Of a DNA stretch of 33,506 bases, positions 30,387 through 33,179 are shown one piece after another. Within the stretch, counting starts at the first letter, position 1. The number at the start of each line of letters is the position of its first letter. The translations under genes and the position numbers were made by a program. Origin of the DNA: Alcaligenaceae bacterium (GTDB taxonomy: Bacteria > Pseudomonadota > Gammaproteobacteria > Burkholderiales > Burkholderiaceae_B); NCBI GenBank assembly GCA_012511555.1, contig JAAZFX010000117.1, positions 1-33,506 on the forward strand. The letters are read 5' to 3'. A model generated the notes under the pieces. The model did not search any database. It saw only the letters and a list, made by a program, of their open reading frames with translations, and had not been told where the DNA came from.

Positions 30387-31505
30387 CTATCTGCGGCTAA
30401 ATACTGAAGGCAACAATAACCACCGTGGGCAGCGCCAATTAACTAAGCGTGAATACAACCACAAATAAAGTCCTGAAAAGACCAACATAGATAAGCAAAG
30501 CATCCATGAGTTTGACCAGAAAATAGTCGCCGGTACCAGTCCGATCAAACAAAGCACCCACAAATACGGCGATGTTAGCGCATTACATAAAGCCGGCACC
30601 TGATGGCGACTATCACGGCTAAAAGTCACTCGTACTAAGCGTCTAAAGATTAGTTGATGCAAATGCAGAGCATCCGGCTGATCAACTCGCACCTTGCGAA
30701 TAAAACGGCGGCGCCAAATCGAAAACATAGTTTCAAAAATTGGGTAAAACAAGACTGCAAGCGCATAAAAAGGTGAGACGGATGGATTACGCGCCACTAG
30801 CTGCACTGCCAATTCGGCTAATATAAATCCAATGAAATAAGCTCCGCCGTCACCTAAAAACACTCGCCCAAAAGGGAAATTCCAAACCAAGAAGCCCATC
30901 ACCGCAGATGCCATCGCAAGGGCAATGGCAAAAATCGCCATATCATTGACCTGATACGCTACCAAGGCCAAAGAAATGGAAATCAGACAGGAAACCATAC
31001 CGGCCAGACCGTTCATGCCGTCAATAAGGTTCATCGCATGGGTACAGCCGCCGACAGCAACCATGGTAAATAGCAACGACACAGGCCAAAAGCTTAGAAC
31101 CCAGTCAAACCATTCAAAACCAACACGCGAAACCCCGCCCAACAGCCACCAAGCGATTGCAGCTGAGGCAAAGGCTGCCAACAAACGCTTACCAGCACCG
31201 ATCTCTTTGGTTATATCCTCTAAGATACCCGCCACAAAAACCGGCATGGCAGCCACAAACAAAGCTGGCCAAAACCAGTTTAAAGTCGTATTATCCGGCT
31301 TCCCTAAAACCAACAAGCCAGCCAAAGTACCTGCAAACACAGCCAAACCACCAATACGTGGGGTGGAGCGTGTGTGAGAAGCCTGAGGCTTGTCTAGATC
31401 TGAATCACCAGTAAAGCGTCCGTGCCAACGCTCGGAGGCAATAATCAAACCGCCTACCGTAAACGCTACAACACAAATCAAGAGATACTGCCAAGCATCT
31501 GTCAC
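30387..31505 (-). CDS. WecA/WbpL-like undecaprenyl-phosphate glycosylphosphotransferase
   Basis: Multi-TM; TPRIGGLAVF, NLIDGMNGLAGM, FLGDGGAYFIGF and ALHLHQLIFRRL motifs of the MraY/WecA family. Confidence 0.93.
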   Translation of the reverse strand: MTDAWQYLLICVVAFTVGGLIIASERWHGRFTGDSDLDKPQASHTRSTPRIGGLAVFAGTLAGLLVLGKPDNTTLNWFWPALFVAAMPVFVAGILEDITKEIGAGKRLLAAFASAAIAWWLLGGVSRVGFEWFDWVLSFWPVSLLFTMVAVGGCTHAMNLIDGMNGLAGMVSCLISISLALVAYQVNDMAIFAIALAMASAVMGFLVWNFPFGRVFLGDGGAYFIGFILAELAVQLVARNPSVSPFYALAVLFYPIFETMFSIWRRRFIRKVRVDQPDALHLHQLIFRRLVRVTFSRDSRHQVPALCNALTSPYLWVLCLIGLVPATIFWSNSWMLCLSMLVFSGLYLWLYSRLVNWRCPRWLLLPSVFSRR

Positions 31506-31635: not shown

Positions 31636-32178
31636 CTACTCTGCTCTGACAACGCCTTCAGTTGCAAAGCCCCACTCTTGCGCATAATCCAATAACTCGT
31701 TAACTACAGTCGCATCAGCTTGCTTGGCGCGAGACAACACCCACAAGTACTGACGATCTGGCGTACCGACAAGTGAATATTCATAATCACCGGCTATTTT
31801 TAAAATCCAGTAATCTCCCCAAACAGCAGGGATAAAAGACATCCAAGCTGGCGCAAAACGGACTTCCAGTTTAGCGCTATCGGGCGTTTGCACTGCAGTG
31901 GCGAGCCTAGCCTGCCCTTTGGCTTCGTCAAAACTGCCATCAGCCACTCTGCAGCTATTAAGTACTTCAATGCTACTATCGGCCTTTAAACTATAAACTG
32001 CTTGTGTATCACCTATGCATTGCGCTTGAAAACGATTAGGCAATTTAGCCTGTTCGTACCATGTACCCACATACTGCGTTAAATCAACCGATTTTTCAGT
32101 ATCAAGTGGCGCATAGCTAGCCTTTGATGAGCAAGCAGCTAACATGCTCACTAACAATATACCAAGTACTTTTTTCAT
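31636..32178 (-). CDS. lipocalin family lipoprotein (Blc-like)
   Basis: MKKVLGILLVSMLAACSS lipobox; VDLTQYVGTWYEQAKLPNRFQAQC lipocalin GxW motif; YLWVLSRAKQAD. Internal ATG at 32178 preferred over the ORF start at 32241. Confidence 0.93.
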   Translation of the reverse strand: MKKVLGILLVSMLAACSSKASYAPLDTEKSVDLTQYVGTWYEQAKLPNRFQAQCIGDTQAVYSLKADSSIEVLNSCRVADGSFDEAKGQARLATAVQTPDSAKLEVRFAPAWMSFIPAVWGDYWILKIAGDYEYSLVGTPDRQYLWVLSRAKQADATVVNELLDYAQEWGFATEGVVRAE

Positions 32179-32255
32179 AAGACCCCCTAGTTGCTTATAG
32201 TGATATTGTAAACATAGTCCTGCCCTATATTTCCATACCACTCTATCAAGTGGAC

Positions 32256-32287
32256 AAAAAAAACCCGGAACCTAAAAGATTCCGGGT
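32256..32287 (-). terminator. rho-independent terminator of the putative sRNA
   Basis: Minus strand ACCCGGAA-tcttttagg-TTCCGGGT followed by T8. Confidence 0.9.
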
Positions 32288-32419
32288 AAATCCACCAAAG
32301 GAGGAGGGTGGAGGAGACATCTGCATAAACTAAAGCCCTAATTGAGGAGACAATTACAAGAAGAAACTTTAGTTTAAATTCCTGCGAGCTACTAGGTAAA
32401 AACCCTATAACTCGACAAC
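32256..32419 (-). ncRNA. putative small RNA carrying multiple anti-Shine-Dalgarno motifs
   Basis: Minus strand: putative promoter TTGTGC-N17-TATTAT (32454-32426); hairpin UAAACUAAAG/CUUUAGUUUA enclosing UAAUUG-UCUCCU-CAAUUA; hairpin UCCACC-CUCCUCCUUU-GGUGGA; terminator ACCCGGAA/UUCCGGGU + T8. No plausible ORF. Confidence 0.75.
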
Positions 32420-32425
32420 AATTAA

Positions 32426-32454
32426 ATAATAGCAAAACTTTTGTTGCGGCACAA
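32426..32454 (-). promoter_or_regulatory. putative sigma70-type promoter of the sRNA
   Basis: TTGTGC - 17 nt - TATTAT on the minus strand; -10 matches 5/6, -35 matches 3/6. Confidence 0.45.
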
Positions 32455-32537
32455 GAAGAAATAGATGAAAACCCTAATTAACTTATTTAATCTTATTTTT
32501 TTTGTTGTTTTTTTATGCAAAACAAAAGATTTATTCC

Positions 32538-32568
32538 TGACAATTAGAGAAAAGCCTCTCAATTGTCA
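32538..32568. repeat. imperfect inverted repeat in the sRNA-osmC intergenic region
   Basis: TGACAATT(A)GAGA-aaagcc-TCTCAATTGTCA: 12 paired positions with one bulged A. Confidence 0.6.
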
Positions 32569-32664
32569 TCTTAATGATATTGCCAACTAAACTCTATTCC
32601 CCAAAGATCATACTAAGATCCTTTAGGCAAGTGCTCAATCAACTGATGAAAAGCGACACAATAC

Positions 32665-32693
32665 TTATAAATAAAACCTCAGTTCTATATAAT
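32665..32693 (+). promoter_or_regulatory. putative promoter for the osmC-like gene
   Basis: Consensus -10 TATAAT at 32688-32693 with TTATAA 17 nt upstream. Confidence 0.45.
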
Positions 32694-32756
32694 GATTTAA
32701 CACATTTAAAAATTTAAATAATTGATCAAACATCAAAAAGTATAGGAAAGATTGTT

Positions 32757-33179
32757 ATGCAATGTTCTGTTGAATGGAATGGCCCTGAGGGTATGTTATT
32801 TGTTTGTAGCACCGGTAGTGGTCACACCCTTACTATCGATGGCCCCCCTGAGGGTGGAGGCAACAACCTCGCACCTCGCCCTATGGAAACTCTATTAAGC
32901 GGCGCAGGTGCTTGCTCTGCTTATGATGTTGTCATGATTTTACAACGTGGTCGCAAAGACATTCGTCGCTGTCGCTTAAATATCACTTCAGAACGCGCTG
33001 ACACTGAACCCAAGGTCTTCACCAAAATTCACTTTGAATTTATTGTCAGCGGTCGTGAGCTGCAAGAAAGCGTCGTTGAGCGTGCGATTAATTTAAGCCA
33101 CGAAAAGTATTGCTCCGCCATTGCAATGCTTAATAAAACCGCCGAAATCACCCACTCATTCCGCATTGAAGAGGTTTAA
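32757..33179 (+). CDS. OsmC family protein (YhfA-like)
   Basis: 140 aa; [51 protein letters not shown] carries the conserved OsmC Cys positions. Confidence 0.88.

Follow-up and report, generated by a model that had tools for sequence, protein, structure and literature searches.

A small RNA of the RF02278/S17 family in Oligella with a predicted PhaR operator over its promoter

The minus strand ahead of a lipocalin gene in the window (the whole 33,506-nt stretch of DNA analyzed here) carries a unit with CU-rich loops and a terminator, which raises the question of what the unit encodes, which genes it acts on and what controls it. A sequence-only reading had described it as an anti-Shine-Dalgarno small RNA (sRNA) whose loops mimic the 3' tail of 16S rRNA. 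Judged from its sequence, the sRNA is an Oligella member of the known family RF02278 and an orthologue of Bordetella S17. RF02278 occurs in nearly every Alcaligenaceae genome examined save strongly reduced ones. We propose, with a probability of about 0.65 for the model as a whole, an S17-type sRNA that blocks ribosome-binding sites (RBS) and is itself repressed at its promoter by PhaR. If true, uptake would be tied post-transcriptionally to a polymer that stores carbon.

Layout and family membership of the sRNA

Reading the sequence confirmed every element of the earlier description on the minus strand, between about 32419 and 32256. The unit is laid out as follows.

32256-32419, minus strand: expected primary transcript of about 164 nt (promoter spacing from sequence, analogy to S17L, leader conserved in six Oligella genomes)
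About 32384-32414, minus strand: leader hairpin 1, CGAGUUAUAGG...CCUAGUAGCUCG (fold, Oligella comparison)
32326-32376, minus strand: leader hairpin 2, UAAACUAAAG.../...CUUUAGUUUA (fold, Oligella comparison, compensatory changes)
32352-32345, minus strand: UGUCUCCU in the loop of leader hairpin 2, repeating the seed of site 1
32256-32319, minus strand: sRNA core, RF02278 (full-length cmscan match, 67.9 bits)
32256-32319, minus strand: expected stable form of about 64 nt after predicted RNase E processing (analogy to S17S)
32307-32319, minus strand: site 1, UGUCUCCUCCACC, unpaired CU-rich seed region (sequence and fold, by analogy to S17)
32285-32312 (approximate limits), minus strand: hairpin UCCACC-CUCCUCCUUU-GGUGGA with site 2 in its loop (RF02278 match, fold)
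32256-32287, minus strand: intrinsic terminator, ACCCGGAA...UUCCGGGUUUUUUUU (11-pair stem, then a U-run)

The core (32319-32256) matched RF02278 above the gathering cut-off of 50 bits (E value 8e-12 over the window), and the match covers model positions 1-64 of 64. The traits of the family are present, namely two hairpins, the second of which is the intrinsic terminator, and CU-rich unpaired sites. Folding of the 168-nt strand gave -55.3 kcal/mol against a shuffle mean of -34.8 (sd 3.7; z -5.6). A terminator was called at 32287-32256, and no other within 32200-32760. The score of the match argues that the unit is not a product of chance, as does the occurrence of RF02278 in 208 of the 221 genomes from this bacterial family. 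The sequence-only reading is thus borne out in its hairpins, CU-rich motifs and CUCCUCCUUU loop, each of which was located on the minus strand, in its strong terminator and in the suggested membership of the betaproteobacterial 'toxic small RNA' family. Pairing with Shine-Dalgarno (SD) regions of many mRNAs, also proposed there, agrees with the published mode of RF02278 (PMC11722255, PMC5688073). The suggested relationship to cuckoo/CcsR RNAs was dropped: the window sRNA lacks the CCUCCUCCC motif, and the Rfam scan returned no such family. Four other families scored under their cut-offs: NmsRb (RF02877, 28.4 bits, cut-off 52), anti-hemB (RF02837, 27.0 bits, cut-off 49.5), MmgR (RF00519, 22.3 bits, cut-off 41) and ncS16.

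Burkholderia members of RF02278 are reported to inhibit growth of E. coli when overexpressed, and S17 overexpression left exponential growth of E. coli unimpaired (PMC11722255). By analogy with S17, the label 'toxic' would overstate the effect of the window sRNA.

Genomic context and orthology with S17

A pattern specific to the window's copy matches Oligella ureolytica, O. urethralis and Alcaligenaceae MAGs, and the host genome is taken as Oligella (Alcaligenaceae). It holds one RF02278 copy. Among the 13 genomes of the bacterial family without a match, eight belong to a single genus with genomes of 0.7-0.8 Mb. The block UGUCUCCUCCACCCUCCUCCUUUGGUGGAU is almost invariant between genera of the family, and the 27-nt block that holds both pairing sites (1 and 2) is identical between the window and its syntenic relatives, the sequences compared here. 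The gene order in relatives is glycosyltransferase family 4, sRNA, coq7, osmC, and in B. pertussis S17 is flanked by a glycosyltransferase gene on one side and by coq7 on the other (PMC11722255). In the window, the sRNA lies among the following genes.

30387-31505: glycosyltransferase, flank of the sRNA kept in the window
31636-32178, minus strand: lipocalin gene (PF08212), downstream of the sRNA
32757-33179: osmC, flank of the sRNA kept in the window

The S17-type neighborhood is therefore conserved in its glycosyltransferase and osmC flanks, which relatives have together with coq7; coq7 is absent between the sRNA and osmC in the window and in Oligella. A lipocalin match beside the sRNA was found in the window's genome and at none of the other Oligella loci checked.

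S17 is a 190-nt, Hfq-dependent transcript with a 17-bp promoter spacer, which RNase E trims to 67 nt (PMC11722255). The window sRNA is orthologous to it: the two share Rfam family, gene neighborhood, promoter spacing and terminator, and the leader and promoter layout of the window agree with the S17 long form. The Oligella leader differs by a hairpin of its own, in which the seed is repeated; further differences are that coq7 is not adjacent and that S17 was reported under Bvg, its known signal in B. pertussis, with PhaR not mentioned (PMC11722255). The B. cenocepacia sRNAs ncS03, ncS05, ncS27 and ncS62 (PMC5688073) likewise belong to RF02278, with CU-rich sites directed against the RBS and a two-hairpin core; however, several paralogues occur there, in contrast to the one copy in the window's genome, and the majority lack a long leader because they are transcribed from the core onward. 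Outside RF02278 are the NmsR siblings of Neisseria (RF02877), which are also betaproteobacterial and direct CU-rich unpaired stretches against the RBS of metabolic genes, but whose copies are in tandem and whose model the window matches only under its cut-off.

Leader hairpins in Oligella

Two leader hairpins are common to six Oligella genomes. A UCUCCU core lies in or near the loop of hairpin 2 in 6/6 species, and in the window this loop carries all eight letters of UGUCUCCU, with which site 1 also begins. With the arms trimmed by hand and a common loop, 98.3% of cells in the hairpin 2 stem pair and three pairs are altered on both sides, which for six sequences is modest evidence. Comparison of homologous leaders, which had been suggested earlier as a check, thus returned both a kept loop core and compensatory changes in the stem. 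Like the candidate targets and the promoter palindrome described below, this extra seed hairpin goes beyond the family record. The seed that it would present in the unprocessed form is a genus-level variant that may be active.

Candidate targets

The genome was searched for the exact seed complement AGGAGACA positioned 1-10 nt before an ATG. This returned 21 sites, against 4 for the reversed pattern, and 20 of the 21 were readable as frames. Fourteen of these 20 genes encode solute-binding proteins (eight: two DctP, three TctC and three Peripla_BP), AMP-binding, acyl-CoA-type ligases (four) or acyl-CoA dehydrogenases (two). The remaining genes encode an MFS transporter, a catechol dioxygenase, a gamma-glutamyltranspeptidase, a LuxR-type regulator and two proteins without a Pfam match. 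The control AGGAGAAA, one base off complementarity, yielded 13 usable genes (ten classified by Pfam scan and the three short ones by eye), none of which falls into the three main classes. The enrichment (14/20 vs 0/13) has a Fisher p of 5e-5, although AGGAGACA is a good SD sequence itself, so that part of it could reflect RBS style. Mean site-1 duplex energies of -13.9 kcal/mol for targets and -9.9 kcal/mol for controls differ because of how the gene sets were selected, and site 2 energies showed no difference between the two sets.

Targets of the same kinds were reported for Bordetella S17 (solute binders, a fatty-acid ligase and acyl-CoA enzymes), where direct repression of BP2158 via site 1 was demonstrated with compensatory mutants (PMC11722255). 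The sRNA described here likely acts on periplasmic solute-binding proteins, acyl-CoA-type ligases and acyl-CoA dehydrogenases, as suggested by the seed matches. No seed site was found near a phaR or phasin gene in the stretches examined, and we therefore claim no feedback on those genes. As to the proposed mimicry of the 16S tail, the likeness of CUCCUCCUUU to the anti-SD sequence stands, but mimicry as a general mechanism is not required, since specific seed matches exist and chosen mRNAs would be reached through sites longer than an SD (AGGAGACA).

Promoter and PhaR-type palindrome

The elements at and around the promoter are as follows.

32454-32449 and 32431-32426, minus strand: promoter, TTGTGC, 17-nt spacer, TATTAT, with an extended -10 TG (S17 homology, same spacing)
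32440-32457, minus strand: PhaR-type palindrome TTCTTGTGCCGCAACAAA over the -35, putative operator (sequence match)
32393-32407, minus strand: TAGGGTTTTTACCTA, operator-like, inside leader hairpin 1; one of two TAGGGTTTTYAYNTA matches in the genome
32462-32476, minus strand: TAGGGTTTTCATCTA, operator-like, upstream of the -35; the other TAGGGTTTTYAYNTA match

By homology to S17, transcription is read from the sequence to start near 32419. A consensus sigma-70 scan called no promoter at the sRNA, because the -35 here is TTGTGC; the plausible promoter of the sequence-only reading is accordingly kept in the form placed by homology, and not as a consensus match.

The -35 region reads CTTGCNNNGCACAAA across genera, a palindrome wider than a -35. 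Published PhaR sites are TG[N]TGC[N]3GCAA, supported by DNase footprinting in H. seropedicae (PMC3206438), and the consensus YTKNTGCRNYGCANMAR in R. eutropha (PMC12849132). The palindrome at the sRNA agrees with both; the box in the window has 2 mismatches to the latter by hand count, where three are allowed in R. eutropha. Many of these genomes also carry the box at their phasin loci. Within this genome, the window box is the sole TTGYNNYGCANCAAA match outside a coding frame. Three further matches lie inside open frames and were not counted as operators. In mononucleotide shuffles of the upstream regions TTGCNNNGCA arises in 1.4% of cases. Because one half of the box doubles as the -35, part of its conservation reflects promoter constraint. 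We consider that the palindrome is probably a PhaR operator, a prediction drawn from these matches.

Co-distribution of the box, the sRNA and phaR

When the count is confined to upstream regions of genomes in which phaR was demonstrated, the strict box is present in 74/79; among the five without it are the window and O. ureolytica, whose boxes differ from the strict form by one base. Four phaR-less genomes have a completeness of at least 90% (G005, G126, G138 and G032), and none of them has the box; two incomplete phaR-less genomes (62% and 86% complete) do have it. The association between box and phaR has a Fisher p of 7e-5 without the incomplete genomes and 8e-4 with them, values that ignore relatedness and are optimistic because the genomes are related. 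Two of the four near-complete phaR-less genomes keep -35 and -10 without the other half-site: G126 (genus g39) keeps CTTGC and CATAAT and has TTTTCTTTTT where congeners have AATGCACAAA, and G138 (genus g5) keeps TTGC and TATACT with the distal half-site gone. Loss of the non-promoter half along with phaR fits the operator prediction.

The sRNA itself is absent from 12/18 phaR-less genomes of the family versus 1/203 phaR-carrying ones, eight of the 12 being reduced genomes from one clade. A PhaR operator would go some way to explain why genomes without phaR mostly lack the sRNA as well. In G005, a complete genus member (loci L005 and L053), a phasin and the sRNA are present, phaR was undetected and the box is at neither locus.

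Regulatory model and alternative explanations

In the proposed model, free PhaR would sit on the -35 palindrome and keep the sRNA low. Once PhaR is titrated by PHB granules, the cell would make the sRNA together with phasins, as a transcript that starts near 32419, ends with the terminator at 32256 and is probably trimmed by RNase E near 32319. The trans-acting, probably Hfq-bound sRNA would pair through the unpaired UGUCUCCUCC (site 1) and the loop CUCCUCCUUU (site 2) with the RBS of chosen mRNAs; covering of the RBS would block translation initiation, and raised sRNA would act as a brake on carbon uptake and acyl-CoA activation. The unprocessed Oligella leader would offer a further seed copy in a hairpin loop. 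Burkholderia homologues rise in glucose medium and in biofilm (PMC5688073), and overexpression of ncS27 is reported to slow growth on certain substrates; both fit the model.

A regulatory parallel exists in MmgR of Sinorhizobium meliloti (RF00519), an sRNA whose promoter is bound and directly repressed by PhaR/AniA (PMC12542648). It differs in being alphaproteobacterial and in targeting phasins, and the window scores under the cut-off of its model. The authors of the S17 study postulated an unknown repressor of the S17 promoter, PS17 (PMC11722255), for which PhaR is a candidate. The RF02278/S17 sRNA probably belongs to the PhaR regulon across Alcaligenaceae as a storage-coupled brake; control of sRNAs by PhaR would then, with MmgR, be a design that recurs. 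The literature searched holds no report of PhaR control of an RF02278/S17 sRNA; an earlier mention may exist, for instance in Kimelman et al. 2012 or Sass et al. 2019. The possible operator at the sRNA promoter is the part of the finding worth an experiment, being direct and cheap to test.

The most serious alternative keeps the RBS-blocking sRNA and assigns the -35 palindrome to another regulator or to the promoter itself. The box does overlap the mapped S17 -35, a second operator-like pair (TAGGGTTTTYAYNTA) unique in the genome brackets the promoter, and the signal known from B. pertussis is Bvg, not PHB. Against it, the distal half-site GCACAAA is gone in the phaR-less G126 and G138, which keep -35 and -10, and the box equals both the phasin-promoter boxes and the published PhaR sites, so that we regard this alternative as rather unlikely.

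Far less probable is a global anti-SD RNA that mimics the 16S tail and lowers translation broadly as a growth brake or toxin. The similarity of CUCCUCCUUU to the anti-SD, the inhibition of E. coli by family members on a cloning vector and the slowed growth reported for ncS27 overexpression would suit it, but overexpressed S17 spares exponential growth of E. coli and acts on chosen genes, and the genes preceded by seed sites in this genome form a coherent set. We give still slightly less weight to a small ORF or the leader of a downstream gene in place of a regulatory RNA. The S17 long form contains a 32-codon ORF (PMC11722255) and an 82-codon open frame crosses the region here; against this, a strong terminator stands ahead of the lipocalin gene, the other Oligella loci checked lack a lipocalin match, and the leader varies by indels and compensatory pairs.

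Further elements and paralogues

The two TAGGGTTTTYAYNTA matches, the only ones in the whole genome, lie 69 bp apart on either side of the sRNA promoter. Genus g39, with the phaR-less G126 among its members, shows the upstream copy too. The pair possibly marks a second regulator with two operators. A GGGAAAACCC-like element occupies a fixed place in the transcribed leader, about 64 nt past the start of the -35 box (e.g., L007, L009, L010, L011, L015 and L115-L117); motifs of this type occur 40-95 nt downstream of the box in 44/83 leaders, where shuffles predict about 7. In multi-copy genomes, RF02278 copies without a PhaR-type box were found (L027, L151, L152 (G030), L153 (G020) and L154 (G019)), and such paralogues may answer to other signals. 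G030, a genome of about 5.2 Mb from the same order, has nine RF02278 matches, most of them above the cut-off, an unusual expansion.
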